Assembly: GCA_002839315.1 (NCBI GenBank) | Contig: PGXV01000005.1 | Location: forward strand, 377,572 to 422,528 | From: Spirochaetae bacterium HGW-Spirochaetae-3 | GTDB taxonomy: Bacteria > Spirochaetota > Spirochaetia > Treponematales > UBA12059 | Direction of reading: 5' to 3' | DNA length: 44,957 bases | Shown here: one piece after another, positions 5,020-23,304 of the stretch | Position numbering within the stretch: position 1 is the stretch's first letter | Layout of the letters: every line of letters starts with the position of its first letter | Notes under the pieces: model-generated | What the model was told of the DNA's origin: nothing | Seen by the model: only the letters and a program-made list of their open reading frames with translations | Databases searched by the model: none | Made by a program: the position numbers and the translations under genes

Positions 5020-5512
5020 CGAGCCTTCTTTCGACACCGTAGCCTTAGCCCTCCCGCGGCTTCTTCCCCGAGCCGATACCTCTGGTCTACGCGAAACGCC
5101 GGAGGTATCCAATGCCCCTCGACGTTACTATCGACATTCCACCGTAAAACTTGAACGATATCATCGCGGGCGCGGTTCCGGGCCCGACGCGCAGGCGGCC
5201 GTCCGAACCGGTCTATGAAAAAAAAAGGCTTGCCGCACTCGCGCGCCGGTCGTATGGCGGGAAGATCCAGACCGCGCCCCGTTGAGGCAACTGGAACCCT
5301 GCGTGGCTCGGCGTTTGGTATACCCCGGGCGTATCGTCCGTGTCCACGGCGATACGCGACGACGCGGCCGGGTCTTGCGAGCCTTCAGGACGAGGCGAAA
5401 CGCTAGCCGGCCTCCTCAAGCGCTCGTTCCATAGCAGAATTCGGGGGGCGATACGGGCGCCGCCGCAGTCCGTGCTGCGTGAGGCGCTGGAAGGGGCGTT
5501 GAAGGGAGCGGC
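5020..5512. other. Intergenic stretch without a convincing gene
   Basis: About 490 bases between zwf and the next minus-strand gene. It holds a run of nine A at about 5219 and a plus-strand frame open from 5286 to 5516 without an ATG. No tRNA, 4.5S RNA core or RNase P core motif was recognised by eye. The zwf promoter probably lies in the first 150 bases. The rest may be a decayed gene. Confidence 0.4.
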
Positions 5513-6082
5513 CTAGAAGCTGGCTAGCGCGTATACGCCGACGAGCAGCTCGATGCGCGCGAGGTCCGGATCGACCGGCCCTTGCTCGCGCAACTCGCCT
5601 ACGTACCAGTAGAAGATGCCGAGCCTCGGGTCGATACGGAACACGTAATCGATGAAGCCCGCGTCTCCGGGGGCCTCGCCGAACAGGAGCGAGGCTATAG
5701 CGTCCGCTACTCCGATGAAGGCCGGGATGGCGTTATTATAATCCCCCGCGTGGACCATGCCCGAGAACGCCTCGAGCAGGGTCAGCGCCTCCGCCTTCTT
5801 CGATTCGTCCTTGCCGTCGACCCATGTCTTGGCGACGAGCAGGCGAACGTTGTCCCTGAAAACCTCCAGCAGGTGGGCCCTCTTGGCCATGAGGTCGCCA
5901 GAGTTGCCGACGACGTACTTCCTGAAGGCTCCTGGCCCGCCGATGAGATCGGCGAGAGCGGAAGCGTACTCGCAACGGAGGACGGCATTGTCCGTTCCGG
6001 CGAGGAGTGGGAAAATCTCGAAGGCGGCCTTCTCGACGTCCAGGTCAGCCGGATCATCGACCGCGTACACAGGTGCGCCCAT
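5513..6082 (-). CDS. Conserved hypothetical protein, 189 residues
   Basis: Soluble protein with no signal peptide, no membrane segment and no catalytic motif that I recognise. It is helical and acidic in character, with a patch rich in large residues (RLGIFYWYVGELREQGP) near the C-terminus. Start ATG 6082 has no purine-rich ribosome binding site. Instead, TTGACA (6113-6118 on the opposite strand) and a poor -10 end 7 bases before the ATG, suggesting a leaderless transcript. It is divergent from the DUF4954 gene. The function is unknown. Confidence 0.7.
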   Translation of the reverse strand: MGAPVYAVDDPADLDVEKAAFEIFPLLAGTDNAVLRCEYASALADLIGGPGAFRKYVVGNSGDLMAKRAHLLEVFRDNVRLLVAKTWVDGKDESKKAEALTLLEAFSGMVHAGDYNNAIPAFIGVADAIASLLFGEAPGDAGFIDYVFRIDPRLGIFYWYVGELREQGPVDPDLARIELLVGVYALASF

Positions 6083-6088
6083 GGGGTA

Positions 6089-6118
6089 ACCATGTCATGG
6101 CGCCCGTAGCTTTGTCAA
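6089..6118 (-). promoter_or_regulatory. Putative leaderless promoter of the 189-residue protein gene
   Basis: On the minus strand a consensus TTGACA (6118-6113) is followed after 18 bases by CATGGT (6094-6089, weak -10). The ATG at 6082 starts 7 bases beyond it. The geometry repeats that at 15286 and 31402. The -10 matches the consensus poorly. Confidence 0.4.
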
Positions 6119-6233
6119 CAATAGGGCGAACGATAGCCTTTGGGCGTGTTGAAAACATGGAACGTAACGATTACCATTATACGCGAGGGGGCGTCTGAGT
6201 ATCCCTCTATTACTGAACGTCTGGAAGGCCATC

Positions 6234-8459: not shown

Positions 8460-8508
8460 CGTCGGGGCGACGCCTGCCGATCGTCCGGCGACGCGGATTA
8501 CCTCGAAC

Positions 8509-8550
8509 GGGAACGCCCCGGGCTTGGCCCGGAGCGTTCCCGCGGCTTTT
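8509..8550 (+). terminator. Rho-independent terminator after the DUF4954 gene
   Basis: A 15-base stem (GGGAACGCCCCGGGC pairing with GCCCGGAGCGTTCCC, one G-T type mismatch) with a very short loop, followed by GCGGCTTTT. It lies between two convergent genes and may work in both directions. Confidence 0.85.
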
Positions 8551-8563
8551 ATTCCTGATACTG

Positions 8564-9100
8564 TTACTTGCCTTTTTCCGTCGATCCGCTCGGATCGGCG
8601 CCGAGGCGGTCCCTCGTGCGGTCCTGATCCTGGTCCGGTTCTTGATCGCAGGTCCCGTCCTGAAGCTGATCCCTGAGCCGATCCCGGTCCTGGTCTTTGT
8701 CCTGATCGGCCGAGAGCGCGGCGTCGGCCTCCGCGACGTACATCCTGACGCGTTCACGTATCATCTCGCGAGCCGCGTTCTCGCATTCGGCCGGCCCGAA
8801 TCCATGCTCGCTCCGTAGTCGTACCTTCTCGGCGAGCTGTATCATATCCTCCGCGCGCAACCCGCCGTCGAGGCCCTCCGAGACCAGCCGGTATGCGTTC
8901 CGTACCATGATCCCGGCTCGCGTCATTACCTGGAACGCGCCGGAAGCGGCGTCGTAGTCCCGCACGGACAGCCTGAGCATGGTAGTCTGCCTGAGCAATA
9001 GACCGAGGGCCTCGCCTTCGGCCGTCGGCTCCGAGGTCGCTTGCGCGAAGGCCATACCGGCCGCGGCCAAGAGCGCCACGATGATAACAATTCTCTTCAT
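8564..9100 (-). CDS. Exported protein with Asp/Gln/Arg-rich tail (paralogue A)
   Basis: 178-residue exported protein. It has a Sec signal peptide (cleavage after MAFA, about residue 19), a helical core of about 100 residues and a very polar low-complexity tail (about 125-178) built from repeated QD, RD and DQ dipeptides. The core is clearly paralogous to the protein at 9211-9663: both have TS.PT...EA, RNAYR, AE+VRLR, a conserved ECE/AECE and AR.MI.E.(I/V)R. Start 9100 has GGAGGACTAG upstream. It resembles no family I can name. The acidic-basic repeats suggest an unstructured or cation-binding tail, which is inference. Confidence 0.75.
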   Translation of the reverse strand: MKRIVIIVALLAAAGMAFAQATSEPTAEGEALGLLLRQTTMLRLSVRDYDAASGAFQVMTRAGIMVRNAYRLVSEGLDGGLRAEDMIQLAEKVRLRSEHGFGPAECENAAREMIRERVRMYVAEADAALSADQDKDQDRDRLRDQLQDGTCDQEPDQDQDRTRDRLGADPSGSTEKGK

Positions 9101-9210
9101 CCTAGTCCTCCTATACGTTCGCTATCCGCCCGACGGACGATTCGTCGCGCTCTAAAGCCATTCGTCGAGGGATACCTCCCGTCGGCGCCGCCGGTTGCTT
9201 CTTTTCTCGA

Positions 9211-9663
9211 TTACTTGCCTCTGCTCGACGGCGCTTCCGATGGTTCGGCAGGACGATCCTGCGTCTGCTTTTGGGTTGCGGTCCCTGCGGCCGTCTGCGT
9301 TCGTATCCTGATCTGCTCCTGTATCATGGCTCTGGCCGTTTCCTCGCATTCCTGCGCCGATAGGCCAAGGCTCCTGCGAAGCCGCACTCGTTCGGCGATC
9401 ATCGTCAGCTCGCGCGCCTTAAGGCCATTATCCAAGGCGTCCGACGTGATACGATAGGCGTTCCTTACCTGGACGCCCGCTTGGACCATCGCCCGGAACG
9501 CGTCGCCGGCCGCCGCCGAATCCTCGGCAGTCAGCCTGAGCGTTTCCGTTTGCTGGATAAGCATTGTTATTGCCTCGGTTTCCGTGGTCGGTACGCTCGT
9601 TTCCTGGGCGAAGGCGATACCGCCTGAAGCCAGGATCGCCGCCACCAATATAAGTCTTCTCAT
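9211..9663 (-). CDS. Exported protein, paralogue B of the tandem pair
   Basis: 150-residue exported protein. The signal peptide ends at about residue 19 (GIAFA), followed by the same helical core as its neighbour at 8564-9100 and a shorter polar tail (QKQTQDRPAEPSEAPSSRGK). Start 9663 is chosen over an upstream extension to 9804 because GGAGGGACTACG precedes this ATG and the signal peptide begins there. The two paralogues point the same way and diverge from the ECF sigma factor gene 140 bases away, so they may belong to its regulon. No known domain was recognised. Confidence 0.75.
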   Translation of the reverse strand: MRRLILVAAILASGGIAFAQETSVPTTETEAITMLIQQTETLRLTAEDSAAAGDAFRAMVQAGVQVRNAYRITSDALDNGLKARELTMIAERVRLRRSLGLSAQECEETARAMIQEQIRIRTQTAAGTATQKQTQDRPAEPSEAPSSRGK

Positions 9664-9788
9664 CGTAGTCCCTCCGCGAGCCTCCAACGGGGCCCATGAC
9701 CGTATACCGACTTGCTCGATCCGCGGTTGCACTATTCCGGCGACGCTCGCCCGGCGCGCGGCGAATCGCCTTTCCGCCGTTCGCGTGC

Positions 9789-9794
9789 TATATT
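9789..9794 (+). promoter_or_regulatory. Extended -10 of the ECF sigma gene, likely leaderless
   Basis: TGCTATATT forms an extended -10 (TATATT at 9789-9794) ending 10 bases before ATG 9804. No Shine-Dalgarno sequence is present in the intervening bases. The -35 (TCGCCT, 18 bases away) is weak. Confidence 0.45.
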
Positions 9795-9803
9795 CGACTT
9801 CCA

Positions 9804-10397
9804 ATGAATCAAGACGACGACGCCAGGATAGCCGGGCGTGCGCTCGCGGGTGATGAGGACGCCTTCCGCGCGCTCGTGGACAAGTACTCAGAACGCCTCT
9901 TCAGGTTCTGCCGGGTGCGCCTCGGCGACGATGACGACGCGGAGGACGCGGTCCAGGACGTATTTATACGGGCGTATCGTTCGCTCGCAGCATTCGACGT
10001 ATCGAGGAGCTGGTCATCATGGCTGTTCGCGATAGCCGCGAATCGGGTCAAGTCCCGTTACGCGGCCCGTTCGTCGGCCGCAGGCCTCGTCGAGCGCGCC
10101 GGCGGCGAGTCGCTCGTCTCGGGCGAAGCGACCGCCGCGGGCGATGATCCTGCGGAGCGAGCGGTGGAAACGCTCGCCGCCGAGGCTCTACACGAGGCCG
10201 TCGCCTCCCTGCCCGCTCGATACAGGGCGCCCGTGGAGCTATTCTACTTCGCCGGCCTCGGCGTCGCGGACGTGGCGAAGGCGCTCGGACTGGGTGAAGA
10301 AGCCGTAAAGACGAGGCTGTTCCGCGCTCGCAAGGCGCTATCGAGAATTCTGGACGATACCGGGCAACCATCGGGCCGAGGGAAGGGTAGACACTGA
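9804..10397 (+). CDS. RNA polymerase ECF sigma factor
   Basis: 197-residue alternative sigma factor of the sigma-70 ECF class, directing RNA polymerase to a small regulon. Region 2 is visible as DEDAFRALVDKYSERLFRFC and DAEDAVQDVFIRAYRSL, with SWLFAIAANRVKSRYAAR; region 4 follows as LPARYRAPVELFYFAGLGVADVAKALG and the helix EEAVKTRLFRARKALS. The start at 9804 is preferred over an upstream frame (9696) because MNQDDDARIAGRALAGDEDAF matches the ECF N-terminus. One base separates its stop from a gene for a single-pass membrane protein, the usual arrangement for a sigma/anti-sigma pair. Confidence 0.95.
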   Translation: MNQDDDARIAGRALAGDEDAFRALVDKYSERLFRFCRVRLGDDDDAEDAVQDVFIRAYRSLAAFDVSRSWSSWLFAIAANRVKSRYAARSSAAGLVERAGGESLVSGEATAAGDDPAERAVETLAAEALHEAVASLPARYRAPVELFYFAGLGVADVAKALGLGEEAVKTRLFRARKALSRILDDTGQPSGRGKGRH

Positions 10398-10398
10398 T

Positions 10399-10983
10399 AT
10401 GGAACGATTCGATAGAGACGGACGCGATGGCGCCGAGCGTCGCTCCGCCCGCCGCATGGCCCTCGATTTCCTCGAGTCGCGCGACGCCGACGGCGACGGC
10501 TCGGCGTCCGACGACGCGCCCGCCCCGTTCCTCAGGGACGCGTCGGCGGCCGCGCGGAGCTCCGACGCGATAATGGCCGGGATACGTTCCGCAGGGCCTC
10601 TGACGACGTTCCTGCCGCGGCCGGATCGCCGCGGGCCAGGGCTGGTCGGCCTCGCGGCGGCGGCGGCGTTGCTCATCGCCTTATCGTCCCTCGTCACGTT
10701 CGGCGTAATGCGGTCCGGCGCCACGGTCGAAGTCAGGTTCGTGCTCGTCGCGCCCGACGCCAGGAGCGTCTGGCTGGCCGCTGATTTCAACCAATGGTCC
10801 CCGGACGGCTATGAGATGCATCGTACGTCCGATGGACCGTGGGAGATAACGGTACCGCTTCGCAAGGACAAGTCGTACTCGTACAACTTCATCATAGACG
10901 GCGAGCGCTGGATCGCCGATCCGGGGGCGCCTTCGCGCGTCGACGACGGCTTCGGCGGCGCGAGTTCGTCCCTGTCTCTCTAG
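10399..10983 (+). CDS. Probable anti-sigma factor with external CBM48-like domain
   Basis: 194-residue single-pass membrane protein. The charged N-terminus (1-78) would be cytoplasmic, residues 81-104 form one membrane helix, and residues 110-190 form a glycogen-binding (CBM48/AMPK-type E-set) domain: VRFVLVAPDARSVWLAADFN, then W at the typical position, DGPWEITVPL, YSYNFIIDGERWIADP and DDGFGG. The N-terminus lacks the HxxxCxxC zinc motif of classical ZAS anti-sigma factors, so the anti-sigma call rests on position directly after the ECF gene and on topology. If correct, a carbohydrate or peptidoglycan-like ligand outside the membrane could control the sigma factor; that is inference. Confidence 0.75.
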   Translation: MERFDRDGRDGAERRSARRMALDFLESRDADGDGSASDDAPAPFLRDASAAARSSDAIMAGIRSAGPLTTFLPRPDRRGPGLVGLAAAAALLIALSSLVTFGVMRSGATVEVRFVLVAPDARSVWLAADFNQWSPDGYEMHRTSDGPWEITVPLRKDKSYSYNFIIDGERWIADPGAPSRVDDGFGGASSSLSL

Positions 10984-10993
10984 GAGGCGACCT

Positions 10994-11848
10994 ATGGCAC
11001 GTTTCAAATCGATTCGCTTCCGATCGGTCTTGCTCGCCGCGTCGATCACGCTCGCCGTCGCGTCTCCCGTTTCCGCACAAGGAGGAGGCCAGGGGGGCGG
11101 CTCGTCCGGAGGAGGCAGGCCCGCCTCTTCGGAACCGACCGAGACTGGCGAGCGGGCTCAGCCGCCCGGTTCCCCGTCCGGCGCCGACGGATCGGCGCTC
11201 GGATGGGGAACCGTCCCGTCTTCGGCCGGAGATCCGGAAAACCGATTCTCGGCATGGCTGGATTCCTCTATGGAAGGCTCGAGGCTCGCGAGCGTGCGCG
11301 AACGGCTGCGTACGCTCGCCGGACCGGCCTTGCGCGCCGGGGTGCCGCTAGACGCGTTCGTCTCCAGGGTTCGCGAGGCCGTCGCCAAGGGCGCGCCGCC
11401 CGTCCTGGTAGCCGAGGCGATCGAGTCGGACGCCGCCGCTTGGATATGGCTGGCGGGTATCCTCGCGGATGGAACCTGGCCGCCTGAGAATGCCGCGACG
11501 GACTTGTACCTCGCCGTGGCGACTGCGTTCAGGAACGGGCTCGATACGGGCGCCGTCTCCGGACTCGTTTCCTGGGCTCGGGTCTCCGGTTCTAGGACGG
11601 GGAAGGCGGTCGCCGCCCTCGCGACGGCCTCGGCCATATCGTCCGAATTCGGCGCGAGCGGGGCCGGCGACGTAGCGAGGATAGTCGCCGCATCCAGACT
11701 CAAGATAGGCCGGTATGACGACGTCGCCGCGCTCGCCGCGAGGGCCGCGGCGTCCGGAATCGGCGCCGATCGGTTCGATTCGGCGCTCGCCGCTACCCTC
11801 GGCGCCGGCGGCTCGCTGGCGGACCTGGAGCGCGCTCTCTTCCGTTAG
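10994..11848 (+). CDS. Exported hypothetical protein of the sigma operon
   Basis: 284-residue protein with a signal peptide (cleavage after PVSAQ, about residue 29), a Gly/Ser/Pro-rich linker (about 30-70) and a helical, alanine-rich domain of about 200 residues with repeating units of the type VREAVAKGAPPVLVAEAI and ATAFRNGLDTGAVSGLVSWA. GGAGG lies just before the ATG, and only 10 bases separate it from the preceding gene, so it is in the ECF operon. Its repeated helical units could form a solenoid. I do not recognise a family; a role in the cell envelope is inferred from export and context. Confidence 0.72.
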   Translation: MARFKSIRFRSVLLAASITLAVASPVSAQGGGQGGGSSGGGRPASSEPTETGERAQPPGSPSGADGSALGWGTVPSSAGDPENRFSAWLDSSMEGSRLASVRERLRTLAGPALRAGVPLDAFVSRVREAVAKGAPPVLVAEAIESDAAAWIWLAGILADGTWPPENAATDLYLAVATAFRNGLDTGAVSGLVSWARVSGSRTGKAVAALATASAISSEFGASGAGDVARIVAASRLKIGRYDDVAALAARAAASGIGADRFDSALAATLGAGGSLADLERALFR

Positions 11849-11873
11849 CCGCGGGCGCTCCCGTCGGGCCGGC

Positions 11874-12362
11874 TTAAGAAGCCGAGCCGGATTCTTTCGG
11901 CTTCTTAGGCCGCGTCGGCGTCGAGGCGGGCGCCTCGATCAGGTTGCGCGTTGCCGACGCGGCTATTTCCGGCGTCCCGAAGTGCTCCTGGACCAGTCGC
12001 GCGAGTTCCGCCGCGGCGTTAATGAGCTTGAACAGACGACCGGATATGACCTTCAGTTCGGCCTCGTCTATCGAATCGTCGTCTTCGAGCGACCTCACGA
12101 TCGACATGTTCAGCGCCGCGGTCTCGCTCATCAACTCGGCCATGCGCGTTACCAGCTCCTTGTAGGAGTACTCCATCCGCCGGTCGGCGATAGACGTAAC
12201 CGTCTCGATGATCGACATGATGTTCTTGAGGGAGTGGATCATCATCGGGTTCGGCTTCCGCTCCACCTCGATGCGCCAATTCTCGAAGCGCGTCAGGGTC
12301 TGGTCGAGCATGTGCTTCAGGTCCGCGTTGCTCATCTCCGGAATATCGTGCTTACCCTTCAT
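11874..12362 (-). CDS. Conserved hypothetical helical protein, 162 residues
   Basis: Cytoplasmic, mostly alpha-helical protein without signal peptide or membrane segment. It contains PMMIHSLKNIMSIIETVTSI, in which an H within a helix recalls the phosphoacceptor helix of histidine kinases or HisKA-like dimerisation domains. However, no ATPase domain follows, so this is only a resemblance. The C-terminal 25 residues are Pro/Lys/Ser-rich. Start ATG 12362 lacks a clear ribosome binding site. It is convergent with the sigma operon. The function is unknown. Confidence 0.6.
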   Translation of the reverse strand: MKGKHDIPEMSNADLKHMLDQTLTRFENWRIEVERKPNPMMIHSLKNIMSIIETVTSIADRRMEYSYKELVTRMAELMSETAALNMSIVRSLEDDDSIDEAELKVISGRLFKLINAAAELARLVQEHFGTPEIAASATRNLIEAPASTPTRPKKPKESGSAS

Positions 12363-12385
12363 GAATCAGCCTTGTCGCGGAAGCT

Positions 12386-12498
12386 GAGCACAGAGACTCG
12401 GAGAAGGCGAGGGGGAAAACGGGAAGGCGCTAGACTCGATCTCATTCTCCCCCTCCTTCCTCTTCATATCCGGTCCTTATCCCTGCGTCTCCGTGCTC
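12386..12498. repeat. Imperfect inverted repeat between two minus-strand genes
   Basis: GAGCACAGAGAC (12386-12397) is mirrored by GTCTCCGTGCTC (12487-12498), with one mismatch. Purine-rich GAGGGGGAAAA and pyrimidine-rich TTCTCCCCCTCC tracts lie inside the arms. The whole element of about 113 bases could form a long imperfect hairpin. It looks like a dispersed intergenic repeat or small MITE-like element, but there is no second copy in this window. Confidence 0.4.
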
Positions 12499-12522
12499 GC
12501 GTATCCTACCCGAGCGGTCTTA

Positions 12523-13617
12523 TCAGGCCGGGTTCCTGGACTTGAAGTCTTCCATGAACTGTACGGTCGTCTCGACGTCCTTGAGGCTGACGGCGTTATA
12601 GGCCGACAGCCGGATGCCGCCCATCGAGCGGTAGCCCTTGGTCTGAACGATCCCGGCGGCCTTCGCGTCGGCTACGAACTTGGCGTCGAGCTCGGGGGTG
12701 GGGAGCTTGAAGTCTATGTTCATCCACGAGCGGGAATCGACGTCGGCGGTACCCTTGAAGTATCCCTTGGACGCGTCGACGGCCGTGTACAGGAGCCGCT
12801 GCTTCTGCTCGTTGATCTTGCCCATCGCGGCGAGCCCGCCGTTCTTCCTGAGCCACTTCATCGTCAGGTTGAGGATGTAGATGGAGAAGCAGGGCGGGGT
12901 GTTGTGCATGGAGAATTTCTCCTTGAACACCTTGTACGACAGCATCGTGGGAAGGTCGTCGTGCGCCTTGGCGAGGAAGTCGTCCTTGATCGCTACGACG
13001 GTGACGCCGGACGGTCCGAGGTTCTTCTGCGCGCCGGCGTAGATCATGCTGAATCTACCGAAGTCGACGGGGCGGCTGAAGATATCCGAGGACATATCGC
13101 AGACGAGGGGCTTGCCCTTTACGTCGGGTATGTAGTGCCACTCGGTCCCCTCCACGGTATTGTTGCTCGTATAGTGCACGTACTCGGCGGCGGGGTTGAG
13201 CTTGAGCTCGCCCTGCTTCGGGATGGCGACGAAGCGCTCGCCCTCGAGCTCCATGTTAGCGGGCATGGATATCTTGCCGTAGCGCTTGGCCTCCTTGATC
13301 GCAGCCTTGGACCAGTTGCCGGTCGCGATGTAGTCGGCTTCCTTGCCCGCGCCCAGGTAGTTCATCGGCAGCATGAGGAACTGCGTGCTCGCGCCGCCGG
13401 TGGTAAAGAGCACGTTGTACTCCTTGCCGAGGCCGGCCAGCTCGCGGAACAGGTCCATGGTCTCCATGTGGAGGGCGTCGTACTCCTTGCCGCGATGGGA
13501 TACTTCCATGACGGAACAGCCGGTGCCCTGCCAGTCGAGCATCTCGCTCTGGGCCTGCTCGAGGACTTCTACGGGGATGCCGGCGGGGCCGGCGCTATAA
13601 TTGATGACTCGCTTCAT
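12523..13617 (-). CDS. serC: Phosphoserine aminotransferase
   Basis: PLP enzyme converting 3-phosphohydroxypyruvate and glutamate to phosphoserine and 2-oxoglutarate, the second step of serine synthesis. The 364-residue length is normal. The N-terminus INYSAGPAGIPVEVLEQAQ, the HRGKEYDALH motif and the PLP lysine in AGAQKNLGPSGV (K198) are all present. AGGAGA precedes ATG 13617. It follows serA by 22 bases on the same strand, so the two form a serA-serC operon driven from about 14650. No serB (phosphoserine phosphatase) is seen here. Confidence 0.97.
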   Translation of the reverse strand: MKRVINYSAGPAGIPVEVLEQAQSEMLDWQGTGCSVMEVSHRGKEYDALHMETMDLFRELAGLGKEYNVLFTTGGASTQFLMLPMNYLGAGKEADYIATGNWSKAAIKEAKRYGKISMPANMELEGERFVAIPKQGELKLNPAAEYVHYTSNNTVEGTEWHYIPDVKGKPLVCDMSSDIFSRPVDFGRFSMIYAGAQKNLGPSGVTVVAIKDDFLAKAHDDLPTMLSYKVFKEKFSMHNTPPCFSIYILNLTMKWLRKNGGLAAMGKINEQKQRLLYTAVDASKGYFKGTADVDSRSWMNIDFKLPTPELDAKFVADAKAAGIVQTKGYRSMGGIRLSAYNAVSLKDVETTVQFMEDFKSRNPA

Positions 13618-13639
13618 GATAGGTCTCCTTTTCCTGTTC

Positions 13640-14515
13640 TTATTTCTTGGCCGCGTAGGCCTTGACCCTGTCGACGATGCAGTCGCCGAGCCGCACGAGG
13701 TTCTCGGCCGTGGAGGCGCCGATATGGGGAGTCATCAGCGCGTTGGGGGCCGTCAAGAGCGGCGAACCTTCCGGCGGCTCCTTGTCGTAGACGTCGGTGG
13801 CGAAACCGGCGAGCTGGCCGGACGCGAGGGCCGCCGCGACGTCGGCGACCACGACGACGGGGCCGCGGCAGGTGTTGACGAGGCGGACGCCCTTCTTCAT
13901 CTTGGCGATGGATGCGGCGTTTATCATGCCGCGGGTCTCGTCGGTCAGCGGCGTATGTATCGAAATATAGTCGGATTGGGCGTAGACCTGCTCGAGGCTC
14001 ATCATCTCGGCGGCGTCGCTCTTCTCGACGTACTTGTCGTACGCGACGACGCGCATGCCGAAGGCCTTGGCGCGGACGGCGAGCTCCCTCGCTATACGGC
14101 CGATGCCGATGAGGCCGAGCGTCTTGCCCATGAGCTCGGTCCGCTCGAGTTCCTTCTTGAGCCACTTGCCTTGCTTCATCGATACGTCCGCGGCGACGAT
14201 ATTGGCCGGCATGGCGGCCATCATCGCGAAGGCCAGCTCGGCGACCGCGACGCTGGAGGCCTCGGGGGTGTTGACTACGGTGATGCCCTTGGACTCGGCG
14301 TACGGAACGTCGATGGTATCGACGCCGACGCCGCCGCGGATGACGAACTTGAGCTTGGGGGCCGCGTCGATCATGTCCTTGCCGACCTTGGTCTTTGAGC
14401 GAACGATGACGATCTCGGCCTCGCCAACGCGTCCGATATCCTGGGTGACCTGTCCGAAGGCCTCGAGACGTTTCGGCAGATCGGCCTGGAACGCATCCGC
14501 GAGAAGAATAAGCAT
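13640..14515 (-). CDS. serA: D-3-phosphoglycerate dehydrogenase, short form
   Basis: NAD-dependent oxidation of 3-phosphoglycerate to 3-phosphohydroxypyruvate, the first step of serine synthesis. At 291 residues it has only the catalytic and NAD-binding domains; the C-terminal ACT/ASB regulatory domains of long forms are absent, so serine feedback through an ACT domain is not expected. Visible motifs are IRGGVGVDTIDV (60-70), the Rossmann loop LGLIGIGRIA (133-142), NTCRG with Arg218, and the catalytic His264 in TPHIGAS. AAGGAGGATCCC precedes the ATG. The adjacent serC supports this rather than another 2-hydroxyacid dehydrogenase. Confidence 0.93.
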   Translation of the reverse strand: MLILLADAFQADLPKRLEAFGQVTQDIGRVGEAEIVIVRSKTKVGKDMIDAAPKLKFVIRGGVGVDTIDVPYAESKGITVVNTPEASSVAVAELAFAMMAAMPANIVAADVSMKQGKWLKKELERTELMGKTLGLIGIGRIARELAVRAKAFGMRVVAYDKYVEKSDAAEMMSLEQVYAQSDYISIHTPLTDETRGMINAASIAKMKKGVRLVNTCRGPVVVVADVAAALASGQLAGFATDVYDKEPPEGSPLLTAPNALMTPHIGASTAENLVRLGDCIVDRVKAYAAKK

Positions 14516-16552: not shown

Positions 16553-18268
16553 TCAGGGGAACAGGACGAGCCTGGCTCCGAGCGCCGCCAGGCCCGAGAC
16601 GAACGCCAACACCAGTCCCGCGTAGCTCCTCGGTCGGCTACGAACCAGGGCGGCCGCTGCCTTTCCCGGTTTCGATACGGCGAAGAGGAACAGCGCGGCC
16701 CCGAGGACGAGGCTGATACCGGTCTTGGCTAGTTCGCTCGAGCCGTAGAGCGTCCCCGCTCCGACCTTCGGGGCCGTGCCGAGCAGCGTTGCCGCGAAGC
16801 CGTTCAGCTTGCCGTAGAACAGCCCCGTCGCGATGCAGAGGAGCGCGAGGGCGAGCATCGCCGTCTTCATCGAGAGGCTTATTCGGTACGCGGCGACAGC
16901 GATCTGGGTTTCTGCCGTTGCCTCGTCAGGCCCGGCGACGGGGCGGCGCGGCGGCAGGTAGATCATGGACAGCTTCATGAACGACGCGATCGTGCATACG
17001 CCGGCGGCGAAGAGCGCCCAATACTCCCAGCCCCCCTTGAAAAGGTACGCTATGGCGTTCTTGCTCGCGAACCCGTTGAACGGCGGGATCGCGCATATGG
17101 AGAGCGCTCCGACGGCGTACGCGGCGGCGACGGTCAGCCGCCGGTCTCCCGAGAGCCGGAGCGCCGCGGTAGCGTTCCGTAGGGTATAGACGTTCCGGTT
17201 CCCCGCCGCGTCCGTGACGGTGCCGACGCTCAGGAAGAGCAGTCCCTTGAAGAGCGCGTGGAAGAGCGCGTGCATGTACGCCGCGTTCAGACCCTCCGCC
17301 GTTCCGAGTCCCCACGCCGCCACGATATAGCCGACCTGGCTTATGGAATGGTACGCCAGGAGCCGTTTAGCGTCTTTCTGCGACAGGGCGACGATGACCG
17401 CGACGAGGGCCGTGACTACGCCCGCCGTGCCGACGAGCGCCATCGCCTGGTGCCCCGTCGGCAGGAAGCCGAGCAGGCGACCGAGAGCGAAGAGCGGCGT
17501 CTTTATAAGCACGCCGGACAGGACGGCCGAGACCGCGTGCGGCGCCATCGCGTGCGCGTCGGGCAGCCAGCCGTAGACGGGCATGACGGCGACCCTGATG
17601 GCTATGGCCGCGACGATGCACGCCGATGACAGAGACGCTGTCGCGCCCCCTCCGTCGGCCAGGGCAGACAGTCCTGCCTCGATGCCTTCGTAGGAGAGGC
17701 TGCCGGTCAGGCGGTAGAGGCCGAAGAGCCCGATGAGGAAGAATACCATGGCCGCGGAACTGACGGTCAGGTAGCTGAACGCCGCGAGGAAGGCGCCCGG
17801 TTTCTGCGAACTCGCGACGAGCACGTACGAGGAAAGCCCGAGCACCTCGAGGCAGACGAACAGATTGAAGAGATCGGCCGTAGACGCGGTCGCGGCGAGC
17901 GCGGAGGTCTGGACGAGGAATATGGCCGTGAAGACGGGCCCCTTGGGCCCGTTGCCGCGCGAATAGAGGTACGCCGCTCCCGCTCCCGCGAACCCGAGCG
18001 CGTCTACGAGCCACGCGAGCCCGTCGAAACGCTCGGCTATGCCTATCGCCGGAGCCCACCCGGAAACGGTGAACGAGACGCCTCCGGCCATGACGGCCGG
18101 CAGCAGGCCCGCGAGGGCCGCCCATGGCAGCGCGAGGCCGACGACCGCTCCCGACGTCTCGAGGATCCTCGAGGCCCGACCCTCGCTGAGCGACTTCGCG
18201 ACGAGCGCCATGGCCGCGCCTACGAGGGGGAGGAATATCGGTACGAGGGCCAGCTCGGCGTCATTCAT
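16553..18268 (-). CDS. mrpD: Mrp/Mbh-type antiporter subunit D (ND2/ND4-like)
   Basis: 571-residue polytopic inner-membrane protein of the complex I antiporter-like family (MrpD/MnhD/MbhH), about 14 hydrophobic segments. Key residues are visible: the TM5 glutamate in DLFNLFVCLEVLGLSSYVL (E141) and K256 in SAVLSGVLIKTP. At the usual TM7 lysine before P.h.WLPDAH the sequence reads IRVAVMP, so Arg225 stands in for the Lys. It is the last gene of the operon and overlaps mrpC by 8 bases. Since no MrpA ND5-like subunit is encoded nearby, this is the only channel-type subunit of the module. Confidence 0.93.
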   Translation of the reverse strand: MNDAELALVPIFLPLVGAAMALVAKSLSEGRASRILETSGAVVGLALPWAALAGLLPAVMAGGVSFTVSGWAPAIGIAERFDGLAWLVDALGFAGAGAAYLYSRGNGPKGPVFTAIFLVQTSALAATASTADLFNLFVCLEVLGLSSYVLVASSQKPGAFLAAFSYLTVSSAAMVFFLIGLFGLYRLTGSLSYEGIEAGLSALADGGGATASLSSACIVAAIAIRVAVMPVYGWLPDAHAMAPHAVSAVLSGVLIKTPLFALGRLLGFLPTGHQAMALVGTAGVVTALVAVIVALSQKDAKRLLAYHSISQVGYIVAAWGLGTAEGLNAAYMHALFHALFKGLLFLSVGTVTDAAGNRNVYTLRNATAALRLSGDRRLTVAAAYAVGALSICAIPPFNGFASKNAIAYLFKGGWEYWALFAAGVCTIASFMKLSMIYLPPRRPVAGPDEATAETQIAVAAYRISLSMKTAMLALALLCIATGLFYGKLNGFAATLLGTAPKVGAGTLYGSSELAKTGISLVLGAALFLFAVSKPGKAAAALVRSRPRSYAGLVLAFVSGLAALGARLVLFP

Positions 18269-18599
18269 GGCCGACGAGCCTCTTCAGTTCGTCCGCGTCG
18301 AGGGTCCCGTATATCCGGTGCAGACGGTAGGCGATGGTCAGCGCGAGGGCGGAGACGCAGACTCCGACGACGATGGCCGTGAGCATCAGCGCCTGCGGTA
18401 CCGGGTCCACGAAGACCCCCGGAGATCCGCCCAGTAGCGGGGCCTTGTCTCCGATCCCGGAGCCTTCGAGGACGAAGAGCAATACGACCGCCGAGTTCAT
18501 GATCGATAGCGCGTAGGCCTTCTTGACGAGGTTGCGCCTCGTGGTCAGCCCGACGAGGCCCGTGATGAAGAGGCACAGTATGAGCGACCGTGCTATCAT
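18261..18599 (-). CDS. mrpC: Mrp/Mbh-type antiporter subunit C (NuoK-like)
   Basis: 112-residue membrane protein with three helices, matching MrpC/MnhC and MbhG, homologous to NuoK of complex I. The motif VFVDPVPQALMLTAIVVG, typical of MrpC/NuoK, is at about 62-79. The start at 18599 overlaps the stop of the preceding gene by 4 bases (ATGA); a longer frame in this phase runs antisense to nothing useful and only reflects an open upstream frame. It would partner with MrpD in cation/proton exchange. Confidence 0.92.
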   Translation of the reverse strand: MIARSLILCLFITGLVGLTTRRNLVKKAYALSIMNSAVVLLFVLEGSGIGDKAPLLGGSPGVFVDPVPQALMLTAIVVGVCVSALALTIAYRLHRIYGTLDADELKRLVGHE

Positions 18600-19342
18600 T
18601 CGTCGTTCCCTCCGAGCATCAGCACGCACATGAGCGCCACTCCCGCGCCGACCTTTAGCCCGATGGCTACGTTCAGGGCGATTATGGTCGAGACCGCCGG
18701 TATCCCGAGCCCGCGGTTCCAGGCGGCGACGCGAAACGCTTCGACCGCCCGGCCGACGCCGGGGAATGACAGGAGGAGTATCCCGGAGAACGCGGCGGCC
18801 TCGATGCGCGCCAGAGAGGCGTGGCCGAAGGCGGTGAGGCTCGGATCTATCCTGCCTAAGCCCCCGGAACGCCGGCCTATGGCTATGAAGATGATTCCCG
18901 ACGCCAGCACGACGCCTCCCTGGAACCCGCCGCCCGGCGATGAATGGCCGTAGAGCATCACGTACGCGCCGAAGAGGAGCACGATGGGCGCCAGTTTTCC
19001 GGCTATGACGTTGACTATCTCCGTATGGAGGGGCTTGGCCTTGTCGGCGAGGTTCTTTCCGGCTCCGCGCGACGAGCCCTCTGCGACGATCAGCGATACG
19101 GAACCGGCGAGCGCGGCGAGTAGCACGATGGTTTCGCCGAGCGTGTCGAAGGCTCGGTACCCGAGGTATATGGCGCTGACGAGGTTGCTGGCGCCCGTAT
19201 CCTCGAGGCCAGCCGTCGCCAGGAGATCGCGGGCGGCTCGCGGCCATGGCGCGTCCGCTAGCACGATCGGCGCGACGGCGGCGAGCGACAGGACGGCCGC
19301 GATAGCCCCGCCCAGCGCGTTCATCGTCCGGCGCCCCGTCAT
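18596..19342 (-). CDS. mrpB: Fusion of MbhE-like and MrpB-like antiporter subunits
   Basis: 248-residue membrane protein joining two subunits. The N-terminal part (about 7-90) carries SNLVSAIYLGYRAFDTLGE (52-70), the MbhE or MrpA C-terminal signature. The second part carries GHSSPGGGFQGG (132-143), the hallmark of MrpB/MnhB/MbhF, and ends in further helices. In Mrp operons MbhE is part of MrpA, while in Mbh hydrogenases it is separate, so this fusion is a distinct arrangement. Start 19342 overlaps the preceding MbhD-like gene by 4 bases; an alternative Met is six codons in. Confidence 0.88.
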   Translation of the reverse strand: MTGRRTMNALGGAIAAVLSLAAVAPIVLADAPWPRAARDLLATAGLEDTGASNLVSAIYLGYRAFDTLGETIVLLAALAGSVSLIVAEGSSRGAGKNLADKAKPLHTEIVNVIAGKLAPIVLLFGAYVMLYGHSSPGGGFQGGVVLASGIIFIAIGRRSGGLGRIDPSLTAFGHASLARIEAAAFSGILLLSFPGVGRAVEAFRVAAWNRGLGIPAVSTIIALNVAIGLKVGAGVALMCVLMLGGNDE

Positions 19343-19572
19343 GATCGGTCCTTGCGTTCCGTTTCCCGGATTGCCCAGACGAAGATGACGGTGGAGACGC
19401 CCGCGCCCACGGCCGCCTCCGTAATGGCGACGTCGGGGGCCTTCAAGATGAAGAACAGCAACGCCGACAGCACGCTCGTGGCCGACAGCGCTATCGCGCC
19501 GTGCAGGAGGTCCTTCGAGAGCAGCGCGTACGCCGAGCCGACGCATACCAGGAAGAGTATGAGCTCCGTCAT
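19339..19572 (-). CDS. MbhD-like (DUF4040) antiporter subunit
   Basis: 77-residue protein of three membrane helices containing KDLLHGAIALSATSVLSALL and KAPDVAITEAAVGAGVST, the signature of the DUF4040/MbhD domain that forms part of the C-terminus of MrpA in classical Mrp systems. Here it is a free-standing subunit. The stop and start overlap both neighbours by 4 bases. Conserved acidic residues (APDVAITEA) in this segment contribute to the ion path in Mrp/Mbh complexes. Confidence 0.88.
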   Translation of the reverse strand: MTELILFLVCVGSAYALLSKDLLHGAIALSATSVLSALLFFILKAPDVAITEAAVGAGVSTVIFVWAIRETERKDRS

Positions 19573-19928
19573 GGTCTATCCTCGCCCCGTCCGCGTCGCC
19601 TGGCGGAGTCCGTCCACGGGTCGAGCCCCGATTTCCACGCGTACCGCGCGATGATATGGGTCGTGGTCGGATTCGATACGAGGAAGAAAATGACGATGAC
19701 CACGACGCGGGCCGCGATGGCTATGGACGGCGAGGCGACCAACGAGGCCGCCAGGACGGAGAACGTCGCCGTCGTGCCGGTCAGCGACGAGGCCTGTAGC
19801 CTCGTGTAGGCGTCGGGGAAGCGGAATACGCCGATGGTGCCGGCGATGGCGAACAGAGCCGCGACGGCGCATAGGCCGGACACGGCCAGTTCCCTGGTCA
19901 GCTCGGCGATGGCCTGCGGATCCGTCAC
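19569..19928 (-). CDS. mrpG: Mrp/Mbh-type antiporter subunit G
   Basis: 119-residue membrane protein of the MrpG/MnhG/MbhC family, three helices, with the typical GTIGVFRFPDAYTRLQASSL (ending at about residue 46) and NPTTTHIIARYAW. The start is GTG 19928, overlapping the stop of mrpF by 4 bases (GTGA). A longer open frame upstream in the same phase is antisense-like arginine-rich noise. Expected to sit at the MrpE-F-G end of the complex. Confidence 0.92.
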   Translation of the reverse strand: MTDPQAIAELTRELAVSGLCAVAALFAIAGTIGVFRFPDAYTRLQASSLTGTTATFSVLAASLVASPSIAIAARVVVIVIFFLVSNPTTTHIIARYAWKSGLDPWTDSARRRGRGEDRP

Positions 19929-20230
19929 GCCCGGGGCTCCTCGACGCCGCCGGGATCCTTGCCGCCGTCTATGCGGGTATCCTTGGTGAACGTGGCGATC
20001 GCCAGTATCCCGAGGAATCCCAGTATGTCGTAGACGAACGCTACGTCGAGGAAGGCGGGCCGGGCTTCCCGGACGCCGCTCATCGTCAGCATGCCGAGCA
20101 CGAGAGCCGATATCGCGGCGAGCGCGGTCAGGCGGTCGGCGCTGCTCGGACCGATCACGAGGCGGACGAGCAGTGCCGCGGAGCATCCCGCGAATATCCA
20201 CGTCGTCCAGGCGAAGGCTATCTCGATCAT
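19925..20230 (-). CDS. mrpF: Mrp/Mbh-type antiporter subunit F
   Basis: 101-residue membrane protein of the MrpF/MnhF/MbhB family with three helices and the conserved RLVIGPSSADRLTALAAIS plus FVYDILGFLGILAIA. ATG 20230 overlaps the stop of mrpE by 4 bases; another Met lies two codons upstream (20236) but 20230 fits the ATGA coupling seen throughout this operon. Confidence 0.92.
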   Translation of the reverse strand: MIEIAFAWTTWIFAGCSAALLVRLVIGPSSADRLTALAAISALVLGMLTMSGVREARPAFLDVAFVYDILGFLGILAIATFTKDTRIDGGKDPGGVEEPRA

Positions 20231-20739
20231 ACCCATATCCTCTTGATGGCCGCCTCGAGGGGGCCCTTGACCTCGTCGCCGGCTCTCGCCGAGTGTCTCG
20301 TCGTCGCGTTGAGCCAGTGCACGATGAAGTGGTCCTCGTCGAGCTCTATGCTGATGGTGCCCGGCGTGAAGGTGATGGCCTCCGCCAGCGCGACGCGCGC
20401 GATATCGGACTTGAGCCTCGAGCGGAAGTGTACGACGCGCGGGGATACCCGGCCGCTCAGCACGGAGGCGAGCGTCCTGAAGCTGGCCGCGTACATGGCG
20501 GCGACGAGCCTGAACGGATAGGCCAAGGCGGGTAAGAGCCGCGGGAACACCATGTTCCTGGCGGCTTCGTGCTCGTCTATGAAGGTGTTGTACGATATCA
20601 ACGCGATCAGCGCCGAGCAACCTATCCCCGTCAGGATCGACGCCGGCGAGAAGCTCCCCGAGAAGAGGAACCAGAGCGCGATGAGTACGGCGAACGTCGC
20701 CAGTATGCGGATGAGCTTCCAGAGGCTTCGAGGGCGCAT
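20227..20739 (-). CDS. mrpE: Mrp/Mbh-type antiporter subunit E
   Basis: 170-residue protein of the MrpE/MnhE/MbhA family. Two or three N-terminal helices are followed by a cytoplasmic domain with the family motif ALAEAITFTPGTISIELDED and the short HWLN segment. It begins 4 bases after the EIIA gene. It is the first of seven antiporter genes in the order E-F-G-D'-E'/B-C-D, which matches mbhA to mbhH of archaeal membrane-bound hydrogenases except that no hydrogenase genes follow. Confidence 0.93.
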   Translation of the reverse strand: MRPRSLWKLIRILATFAVLIALWFLFSGSFSPASILTGIGCSALIALISYNTFIDEHEAARNMVFPRLLPALAYPFRLVAAMYAASFRTLASVLSGRVSPRVVHFRSRLKSDIARVALAEAITFTPGTISIELDEDHFIVHWLNATTRHSARAGDEVKGPLEAAIKRIWV

Positions 20740-20743
20740 CGCG

Positions 20744-21208
20744 CTACTCCCTCTCGCGTAGGAGCCGCGCCAGCGACGGGGCGTCGACGGCCTCCCTGGC
20801 CGCCTTCCTGAACGAGGGATCGTGCGCCATGCGCGCCAGCTTTGAAAGGAGCTGCAGGTGCTGCGACGCGTTATCGCGCGACCCCGCGATCATGAACACG
20901 AGATCGACGGGGACGGAGTCCTGCGCGCCGAAATCGACCGGTCGAGCGAGGCGCGCCACGGCCAAGGACGTTTCGTGTATATCGTCGCACAAGGCATGCG
21001 GGATGGCGATGCCCTCTCCTATGCCGGTGGACGCTAGGGCCTCGCGGGCGACTATCGCCGACAGGAGCCGCTTCGGATCCATGGGCGCGCTATCCGCGCA
21101 TAGCAATCCCGCCACCGCCTCGAGCGCTCCGGCCTTGTCGCTGGCTTCTATCCCGACGGCGACCCGTCCTTCCTGGATTATCCGTTTAAGGCTCGTCATG
21201 GCGCTCAC
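20744..21208 (-). CDS. PTS EIIA (fructose/nitrogen type) regulatory protein
   Basis: 154-residue EIIA domain of the PTS fructose/PtsN superfamily. The phosphoacceptor His71 is in GIGEGIAIPHAL. Other landmarks are KAGALEAVAGLL and PVDLVFMIAGSRDNASQHLQLLSKLA. No membrane EIIB/EIIC genes are near, so a regulatory (EIIA-Ntr-like) role is more likely than sugar uptake. It overlaps the PII-like gene by 4 bases and precedes mrpE by 4 bases, so it is made together with the antiporter. EIIA-Ntr is known to control potassium transport in proteobacteria; control of this antiporter by phosphorylation state is inference. Confidence 0.9.
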   Translation of the reverse strand: MSAMTSLKRIIQEGRVAVGIEASDKAGALEAVAGLLCADSAPMDPKRLLSAIVAREALASTGIGEGIAIPHALCDDIHETSLAVARLARPVDFGAQDSVPVDLVFMIAGSRDNASQHLQLLSKLARMAHDPSFRKAAREAVDAPSLARLLRERE

Positions 21209-21558
21209 TCCTCATCGTCGTCGTCGAGCCGAGCGAATCCATAACCCCATTCTATGGGCAGCATGAACATCACGCCGGTTCCCGGGTTCTCGAGCCCGCC
21301 GACCACCTCGTCCAGGATCGGTACGAGGCGGTTGACGGCCTTGTCGTCCTTGACGACCGAAAGTATCGTCTTGTTGTACGGTTTGTTCCCCTTCATGAAT
21401 TCCTTGAAGCCCGCGAAGAGCGGTACCTCGTATGCCAGGAAGTACCCCAGGCCCTCCGAGTCGAGGATGGTCGCCCCCGGGATGCCCGCCTCTACGTAGG
21501 CTTCCAGCACTTCCTCGAGGTACTCTTCCTTGTTGAGAACGAATACGAGTAGCTTCAT
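21205..21558 (-). CDS. PII-like regulatory protein
   Basis: 117-residue protein with the ferredoxin-like beta-alpha-beta pattern of PII relatives: MKLLVFVLNKEEYLEEVLEAY at the start, GIPGATILDSEGLGYFLAYE in the middle (the T-loop region, lacking the uridylylation Tyr of GlnB) and a C-terminal acidic tail (RLDDDDEE). It heads the antiporter operon. Members of this wider PII-like group occur beside bicarbonate or cation transporters, where they bind nucleotides. Here a role as sensor for the Mrp-type complex, together with EIIA, is inference. No Shine-Dalgarno sequence precedes the ATG; the promoter suggests a nearly leaderless transcript. Confidence 0.83.
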   Translation of the reverse strand: MKLLVFVLNKEEYLEEVLEAYVEAGIPGATILDSEGLGYFLAYEVPLFAGFKEFMKGNKPYNKTILSVVKDDKAVNRLVPILDEVVGGLENPGTGVMFMLPIEWGYGFARLDDDDEE

Positions 21559-21650: not shown

Positions 21651-22943
21651 ATGTCAAATTTAACATACGAACCCCCGCCGAACGATTTCGAGACCGAATC
21701 GCGGCATGCGCGCACTGCGCTCCTCGGCTTCCTCGGCTTCCTCCTGGCTTACGGCCTGGCGGCGTCGAGATTCGACCTGTCGGCGATAGCCCGCGGGCTT
21801 GGAGTCATAATCGTAAGCCCGGATATCCTGATTAACGATTACGCGAGCGTCGCCGGCCTCGGGCCCGCTTTCATCAATTCGGCGCTCTGCGTTTGCGTCG
21901 CGATAGGGATTCTCAAGGCTTCGCGCGTGTCGGTGTCCGGTCCGGCGATAGCGGTCGTCTTCACGATCGCGGGATTCTCGCTGTTCGGCAAGAATATTGC
22001 CAATATCTGGCCGGGCATATTGGGCGCCTACCTGTATTCGGTAGCCAGCCGCCGGCCGTTCGGCGAGAATATCATCGTGGCGTTGTTCGGCACCGCGCTC
22101 GCGCCGCTTTCTAGCGAGGTCGCGTTCGGACTCGGCATCCAGGCTCCCTGGAACATCGCGCTCGCCGTGAGCGTCGGAGCGGTCGTCGGATTCCTCATAT
22201 CGCCGATCGCCAGGCACGCGCTCGACTTCCATCGCGGCTATAACCTCTATAATATCGGCTTCGCCGCGGGCCTCATAGGCACGGTGGTGATGTCGGGGTT
22301 CAAGGCTTTCGACATACCCTTGTCGGGCGGTTTCCATTGGGCCGTCCTCGGGCCGCTTCCCGTGCTGCCGGGCCTCGCGGCGTTCTTCGTCGCGCTCATC
22401 GTCACCGGCGCGATCATCGATCCGGGCTGGCCCGCCTCGTACCGTAGGCTCCTGGCCTCGCCGGGGCGGCTCGTCAGCGATTTCGTGCGCTATTACGGGC
22501 TCGGCGCGACCTTCGTGAACATGGGCGCCATGGGGCTCCTGTCCAGCGCCGTCGTATTGGCGATAGGCGCATCCTGGAACGGCCCGATCATCGGAGGCGT
22601 GCTGACGATAGTCGGCTTCTCGGCGTTCGGCAAGCATCCCCGCAACGTAGTGCCGCCGATGCTCGGCGCGATCGGGATGGCGCTCGTCTCCAAATACGGC
22701 ATCGACAATCCGGCGAGCCAGCTCGCGATCCTGTTCGCGAGCACGCTCGCGCCTATCTCCGGGGAATACGGCCCCGTAGCCGGCTTCGCGGCCGGCATGA
22801 CCCATCTGCTCCTCGTCCAGGTGGTCGGGACGCTGCACGGGGGGCTCAACCTTTACAATAACGGTTTCGCCGGCGGATTGACGGCGGGGCTGTGCCTGCC
22901 CGTGCTCGAGTGGCTACGCGAATGGAGGAGACATGAAATCTGA
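21651..22943 (+). CDS. DUF1576 family membrane protein
   Basis: 430-residue polytopic membrane protein with about ten hydrophobic segments in two similar halves: each half carries a motif of the type GFSLFGKN / GFSAFGKHPRNVVPP and YNLYNIGFAAGLIG / LNLYNNGFAGGLTAG. That internal duplication and length fit DUF1576 proteins, presumed transporters or channels of unknown substrate. The start overlaps a leaderless promoter. The last 11 bases overlap the next gene, so the 123-residue protein is probably a partner. It is divergent from the Mrp operon. Confidence 0.85.
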   Translation: MSNLTYEPPPNDFETESRHARTALLGFLGFLLAYGLAASRFDLSAIARGLGVIIVSPDILINDYASVAGLGPAFINSALCVCVAIGILKASRVSVSGPAIAVVFTIAGFSLFGKNIANIWPGILGAYLYSVASRRPFGENIIVALFGTALAPLSSEVAFGLGIQAPWNIALAVSVGAVVGFLISPIARHALDFHRGYNLYNIGFAAGLIGTVVMSGFKAFDIPLSGGFHWAVLGPLPVLPGLAAFFVALIVTGAIIDPGWPASYRRLLASPGRLVSDFVRYYGLGATFVNMGAMGLLSSAVVLAIGASWNGPIIGGVLTIVGFSAFGKHPRNVVPPMLGAIGMALVSKYGIDNPASQLAILFASTLAPISGEYGPVAGFAAGMTHLLLVQVVGTLHGGLNLYNNGFAGGLTAGLCLPVLEWLREWRRHEI

Positions 22944-23304
22944 CGCTACACAGTTGATGCGCGTGGCCGAAGAAGTCCTGAAGTATTTTTATATAAAAGG
23001 TTCGAGATCGGTCAAGGTATCGTACGATTTCGGGGACGACCGATCGTTCTGCGCCGTGTCGGCTAAGGATATCCTCCTCGAGGCGGACGACGAGAATTAC
23101 CTGCGCCGGGTCTTCGACGGCCCCGTGCAGCCGGAGATAGCCAATTACTACGGCACCCTCGTCGGCAGGAGGCGCGATGAGCTCGAGATGGAACTCGTCG
23201 GCACGATGGCCGAGCTCGAGGATATCCAGAACGAGGAGGGGCTCGGGGTCGTCGTCGTGCTCAGCCGCCGCGAGATAGAATACCGGTCCGCCCACAAGAG
23301 GTAA
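22933..23304 (+). CDS. Conserved hypothetical protein coupled to DUF1576
   Basis: 123-residue soluble protein. Sequence landmarks are LMRVAEEVLKYFYIKGSRSV, DFGDDRSFCAVSAKDI and VQPEIANYYGTLVGRRRDEL, with an acidic C-terminal helix ending in VVVLSRREIEYR. It has no membrane segment or known catalytic motif. ATG 22933 is preceded by GGAGGAGAC and overlaps the DUF1576 stop by 11 bases, so translation is coupled. It may be a cytoplasmic regulator of the DUF1576 membrane protein; that is inference from position only. Confidence 0.7.
   Translation: MKSDATQLMRVAEEVLKYFYIKGSRSVKVSYDFGDDRSFCAVSAKDILLEADDENYLRRVFDGPVQPEIANYYGTLVGRRRDELEMELVGTMAELEDIQNEEGLGVVVVLSRREIEYRSAHKR

Follow-up and report, generated by a model that had tools for sequence, protein, structure and literature searches.

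The window analysed here, 44,957 nucleotides from Spirochaetae bacterium HGW-Spirochaetae-3 (contig PGXV01000005.1, positions 377,572 to 422,528), carries on its minus strand a nine-gene operon (16553-21558) in which genes for a PII-like protein and an EIIA protein precede those of an Mrp complex. Based on gene content, gene neighbourhood and structure prediction, we propose that the operon encodes a group 3 (Mbh-type) Mrp cation/proton antiporter whose activity is probably controlled by a dedicated regulator with two inputs, the PII-like protein and EIIA. The most economical reading has the PII-like protein regulating the antiporter encoded beside it, with EIIA as a further input that was gained in spirochaetes. 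What is new in this finding is the pair of regulators. The best-known role of PII proteins is in nitrogen control, and accounts of Mrp antiporters usually make no mention of soluble regulators; in the open-licence literature we found no paper linking a PII-like protein to Mrp or to cation/proton antiporters of the CPA type.

The PII-like protein, EIIA and the neighbouring antiporters

A search across genomes for the PII-EIIA-mrpEFG set, suggested by a preliminary description of this DNA, placed the PII-like gene and then the EIIA gene directly before mrpE in 25 of the 26 spirochaete loci with upstream sequence. When 393 Spirochaetota genomes were searched with a PII alignment, 24 of 27 close PII-like copies were found to adjoin mrpE. 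Comparison of 24 complete cassettes shows that the PII-like protein is the most conserved of the cassette proteins (mean pairwise identity 72%, 43 of 117 residues invariant; MrpD 49%, EIIA 40%). The source genome also holds a second PII-EIIA pair on another contig, C5 (L116:9236-11577), with no antiporter beside it and a tyrosine-integrase gene directly after it.

The same PII family is found beside single-subunit CPA antiporters, which have an unrelated fold. Ten of the 14 distant spirochaete copies examined adjoin a Pfam-confirmed cation/proton antiporter (PF00999), and one distant copy (L131) adjoins a fragment resembling such an antiporter. EIIA and PII are fused into one protein in eight of the distant spirochaete loci, and one genome (G203) holds both kinds of module, Mrp-linked and CPA-linked. 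The other three distant copies (L127, L128, L130) belong to gene pairs for EIIA and PII near rpsF/ssb. In 299 Bacillota genomes we detected about 70 clear relatives of the PII-like protein (56 to 118 bits). Among the 57 of these with at least 70 bits in the fetched neighbourhoods, i.e. the higher-scoring part of the matches, 56 have a CPA antiporter as same-strand neighbour, with gaps of -7 to 441 bases, and the remaining one lies 38 bases from a contig end. A search of Pseudomonadota returned weak matches only (at most 28 bits). The occurrence of one PII family beside both Mrp and CPA antiporters, two unrelated folds, therefore strongly supports an antiporter-regulating role for this family. 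The preliminary description had proposed PII and EIIA as antiporter regulators, and by inference the CPA-linked loci, where EIIA is often fused, lend weight to this proposal. At about 380 to 440 residues, the CPA partners examined have roughly the size of the membrane domain by itself; a separate PII protein could therefore take the place of the cytosolic RCK-type domain that Kef and YcgO proteins have.

Weak PII matches serve as controls from another PII-like family, not as GlnB controls; their assignment to canonical GlnB was rejected, since they belong to this other family and the Bacillota ones lie beside DUF1538-type genes. None of the four weaker Bacillota matches (L229-L232) has a CPA neighbour. 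These proteins, of about 110 residues with a shortened T-loop region, are encoded beside genes for DUF1538-type membrane proteins and are a further PII-like group with a transporter link. In a tree of 107 sequences the antiporter-linked family and the other PII-like group separate with support of 100/100; resolution within the antiporter-linked family is limited by the few columns.

The PII-like protein of the window (117 residues, 21205-21558, minus strand) is a member of the antiporter-linked family. Its Pfam PII match lies below the cut-off (22.3 versus 25 bits); a genome-wide Pfam P-II search of the source genome did not list the gene, which was recovered only by the family-specific alignment search. 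The Bacillota relatives exceed the Pfam P-II cut-off, and profile comparison gives the window protein a remote match to PII proteins of solved structure. Further support for the PII fold comes from an AlphaFold2 model (mean predicted local distance difference test score, pLDDT, of 75), with which all 46 Foldseek matches at E <= 0.001 are PII-family proteins. The modelling thus places the protein in the PII superfamily, with a predicted beta-alpha-beta/T-loop/beta-alpha-beta fold. The T-loop region carries the signature DSEGMGxFLxYEVPLF...FMKGNKPYNKTI.

The protein had also been described as nucleotide-binding. This is unproven because the canonical PII ligand residues for ATP and 2-oxoglutarate look absent: in alignments with solved PII proteins and relatives the B-loop GDGK, including K90 of GlnB, is not kept and reads PGTGxMF, and R101 and R103 of the GlnB C-loop are absent. 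Diadenylate cyclase genes are present in 30 of 30 genomes checked, which permits, and does not demonstrate, cyclic di-AMP (c-di-AMP) as a candidate ligand. PstA/DarA likewise have a PII-like signalling role and come from cells that control K+ and osmolyte transport through c-di-AMP; they bind c-di-AMP, whereas for the spirochaete protein it is a candidate ligand only. The B- and T-loop lengths of PstA are reversed (PMC6516651). Borrelia BB0017 was considered as an already described family member and set aside, since we judged its PII-like part, a DUF2179 domain linked to the membrane, to be of a different kind.

Small PII proteins encoded with or acting on transporters are known from GlnK-AmtB, SbtB-SbtA and PII-NrtBCD, which share with the spirochaete family the PII fold and the T-loop as likely contact. 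Their targets are Amt, bicarbonate and nitrate transporters, whereas the spirochaete family sits with cation/proton antiporters. In contrast to these known regulators it has its own T-loop signature and lacks canonical ligand residues, and it forms a clade separate from the other PII-like group sampled.

The second regulator gene encodes an EIIA-2 (PtsN/fructose-type) domain protein of 154 residues (20744-21208, minus strand, GTG start; EIIA2 at 7e-33), whose open reading frame (ORF) overlaps that of the PII-like protein by 4 bases. PtsN is its best solved match (1e-31). The phospho-acceptor His71, within GxGxAxPH, and the second active-site histidine, His117, are invariant in 20 homologues and belong to only eight invariant columns. 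The sequence thus suggests a PtsN-like, putatively phosphorylatable protein. In Sphaerochaeta-type cassettes (L022, L024, L025, L027, L030) the active-site Pro-His is Thr-His, with the histidine kept. The source genome has two EI genes. Of 32 genomes searched, 31 yielded EI; none was found in G364, whose module comprises PII and no EIIA, so that every searched genome whose module includes EIIA also has EI.

Control of a cation/proton antiporter by the phosphorylation state of a PtsN-type EIIA, as proposed here, is known from PtsN (EIIANtr) and YcgO/CvrA of E. coli: PtsN in its unphosphorylated form binds to YcgO and thereby inhibits K+/H+ antiport (PMC11808508). In contrast to the multi-subunit Mrp with a PII-like protein in the spirochaetes, YcgO is a CPA1 protein of one subunit that carries an RCK/CorC regulatory region of its own, and no PII takes part. 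The E. coli ptsN gene is not known to lie in the ycgO operon.

Antiporter composition and ion path

By gene content (E, F, G, MbhD/E, B, C and D, with no mrpA) the operon encodes a stand-alone group 3 Mrp. Neither MrpA/ND5 nor hydrogenase or complex-I-like redox subunits occur among the genes of 16553-21558. The absence of both had been pointed out in the preliminary description, which also proposed a stand-alone antiporter whose subunits follow the order seen in the antiporter half of Mbh; operon content and genome-wide counts of Proton_antipo_M domains bear this out. The source genome (3.9 Mb, 98% complete), whose closest relatives based on MrpD are spirochaete genomes, has three such domains, one in the window MrpD and the other two within a single fused subunit encoded on contig C9. 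The latter belongs to a separate Mbx/Mbh-like redox complex with its own relatives of MrpE, MrpG, MbhD, MbhE-MrpB and MrpC as well as NuoH-, NuoB-, NuoC- and NuoD-like subunits and a flavoprotein. In this locus (L004, G000:C9:17000-36900, 4019-14500) the fused double antiporter subunit exceeds 1100 residues and the adjoining flavoprotein is NfnB/GltD-like. No PII gene lies beside the C9 module, and a role of the PII-EIIA pair as part of the redox complex was rejected, the pair not being adjacent to this locus.

A search for a distant ND5-like partner gave a similar picture. MrpD is the sole Proton_antipo_M protein detected genome-wide in 15 of the 26 spirochaete genomes carrying a close PII-like copy, and six of these 15 are single contigs (G194, G203, G326, G350, G371, G387). 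An ND5 partner encoded elsewhere is therefore ruled out. The single channel subunit of the preliminary description holds for the window MrpD and does not hold for all relatives: two tandem MrpDs are found in several Sphaerochaeta-type cassettes and in the relatives G321 and G343, a single MrpD thus being the common and not the sole form. Tandem mrpD genes were seen in the cassettes of L025, L027, L029, L030, L117 and L118; in the first four of these, divergence of the upstream copy affects several positions, e.g. FWGKN around the lysine of transmembrane helix 12 (TM12).

Stand-alone Mrp complexes without ND5 are already known from group 3 and are not new: such a complex without MrpA has been studied in Pyrococcus furiosus (PF1147-1153, mrpEFGBB'CD), where its deletion causes sensitivity to acidification and its driving force was called unknown (PMC8415708). 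The domain content is equal (E, F, G, MbhD/E, MrpB, C and a single D), and both systems lack the MrpA ND5 part and a redox module. They differ in the fused subunits, MbhE-MrpB in the spirochaete and MbhD-MbhE in P. furiosus, and in the TM7 arginine, present only in the spirochaete MrpD. PII-like and EIIA genes in front likewise belong to the spirochaete operon only, the P. furiosus operon as described comprising seven mrp genes.

The window MrpD has Glu141 (TM5), Lys256 (TM8) and Lys403 (TM12), and an arginine, Arg225, at the position of the TM7 lysine. This arginine is shared by all 41 other spirochaete copies compared, including the tandem copies and a cassette without PII (L032), and occurs in none of 112 other aligned stretches, 96 of which have lysine. 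All other essential residues examined are kept, comprising Glu5, Lys8 and Lys12 of MrpD, the DR of MrpF (Asp32-Arg33), the TPG of MrpE (125-127), the MbhD glutamate (Glu52, invariant), RxxDTxxE of MbhE and PQ of MrpC. In Bacillus pseudofirmus MrpD the K219A replacement abolishes antiport (PMC5703873), and a cryo-EM model has the TM5 glutamate pass a proton to the TM7 lysine, with MrpA-MrpD coupling yielding 2 H+ per Na+ (PMC7419157). Judging from these residues, the coupling of the spirochaete Mrp probably differs from the usual one because of the TM7 arginine and the missing MrpA, perhaps towards 1:1 exchange.

Operon layout and neighbouring genes

All nine ORFs were found on the minus strand, tightly packed with overlaps of 4-8 bases and a single 4-base gap, in the order PII-like, EIIA-2, MrpE, MrpF, MrpG, MbhD, MbhE-MrpB, MrpC and MrpD, just as first described. 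Their identities were assigned by Pfam scan, and conservation of the cassette across spirochaetes rules out chance ORFs. MrpE/MbhA (170 residues, 20227-20739; MNHE 7e-29) follows the EIIA gene after the 4-base gap. MrpF/MbhB (101 residues, 19925-20230; MrpF 1e-10), MrpG/MbhC (119 residues, 19569-19928; MrpG 7e-20), an MbhD-like subunit (77 residues, 19339-19572; MbhD 4e-21) and an MbhE-MrpB fusion (248 residues, 18596-19342; MnhB 8.5e-17, MbhE at the cut-off) come next, each with a 4-base overlap. The MbhD-like subunit is equivalent to part of the MrpA C-terminal region, and the fusion resembles MbsE of the Pyrococcus MBS complex. For MrpC/MbhG (NuoK-like, 18261-18599; Oxidored_q2 3e-21) the second ATG gives a 4-base overlap, an upstream ATG at 18608 being also possible. 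The antiporter-like subunit MrpD/MbhH (571 residues, 16553-18268; Proton_antipo_M 8e-47) closes the operon with an 8-base overlap.

Divergent from the operon, on the plus strand, lie genes for a DUF1576 membrane protein (21651-22943) and a small uncharacterised protein (22933-23304). Both adjoin the operon in the nearest relatives only (L007, L008), and the DUF1576 gene was for this reason not counted as part of it.

Proposed regulation and competing explanations

In the proposed mechanism the antiporter would be opened or closed by the PII-like protein, a trimer judging from its homologues, which would bind to the cytosolic side of the complex with its highly conserved T-loop region. The signal would be a small molecule, probably an adenine nucleotide or a related second messenger, e.g. 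c-di-AMP. Phosphorylation of EIIA by EI/HPr would mirror phosphoenolpyruvate and the sugar/energy state, and as the second input it would alter the contact of EIIA with the PII-like protein or the antiporter, as unphosphorylated PtsN inhibits YcgO. With the MrpA pump unit missing, the stoichiometry might come closer to 1 H+ per cation. What was observed is sequence, fold and gene neighbourhood; what goes beyond them, namely physical contact, gating, the sign of the effect, the ligand, the transported ion and the stoichiometry, we infer.

Several observations weigh against regulation of the antiporter by the pair. One spirochaete cassette (L032) has neither regulator, three PII-EIIA pairs among the 27 close PII-like copies (G000:C5, G063, G333) have no neighbouring antiporter, and the distant pairs L127, L128 and L130 lack an adjacent one as well; PII-EIIA may thus have other targets. 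EIIA diverges fast, as its eight invariant residues indicate, the canonical PII ligand residues are missing and the TM7 arginine raises doubt on ordinary H+-coupled antiport. Gene neighbourhood, moreover, would look the same under direct gating and under co-expression that has some other cause.

The orphan pairs, including the second one of the source genome, and the pairs near rpsF/ssb would fit a sensory pair that targets something elsewhere, such as a transporter, an enzyme or a transcription factor, with Mrp sharing the operon through common conditions. We consider this unlikely: the orphan pairs are few, and the antiporter link recurs with two unrelated folds in two phyla, nearly every Bacillota copy lying beside an antiporter. 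It is quite unlikely, too, that the complex is an electroneutral or uncoupled cation path, i.e. a regulated leak or channel, or a carrier of another species, with PII-EIIA as shut-off valve. The arginine shared by the window and 41 further spirochaete MrpDs and found in none of the 112 other relatives speaks for such a path, as do the loss of antiport in the Bacillus K219A variant (PMC5703873) and a coupling model that needs neutralisation of the Lys7/Glu5 pair, which arginine makes unlikely (PMC7419157); the unknown driving force of the MrpA-less Pyrococcus Mrp (PMC8415708) points the same way. Yet the remaining essential residues examined in MrpD, MrpF, MrpE, MbhD, MbhE and MrpC are kept, and an electrostatic mechanism could still make use of a fixed positive charge. 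Alternatively, the Mrp could be an ordinary member of group 3, the two accessory genes having no functional importance and simply staying with it in an operon conserved among spirochaetes. This would agree with the known occurrence of group 3 Mrp and with vertical descent, which alone would hold neighbours together in related genomes. This explanation is highly improbable, as the PII-like protein is more constrained than the antiporter itself and the CPA link, recurring with unrelated antiporters across phyla, already weakens it.

Regulation by the PII-like protein and EIIA may be part of a wider scenario, which we put forward tentatively. A previously unrecognised PII family could act as a portable gate that works on single-subunit CPA antiporters in Bacillota, gained a phosphorylatable EIIA in spirochaetes and was passed there to the unrelated, multi-subunit Mrp. 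In the sole antiporter-like subunit of this Mrp the TM7 lysine would have changed to arginine, and the resulting exchanger would be coupled in a different way and gated by metabolism. If true, the action of one PII family on two antiporter folds would reveal the means by which many Bacillota and spirochaetes link their pH, Na+ and K+ balance to the energy or second-messenger state, and it would give a testable role to many genes labelled just 'P-II family'. The naturally MrpA-less complex with its TM7 arginine would be a natural experiment on ion coupling in Mrp, Mbh and complex I. The link of one sensor family to two unrelated exchanger types points to an unrecognised coupling of ion balance to metabolism.

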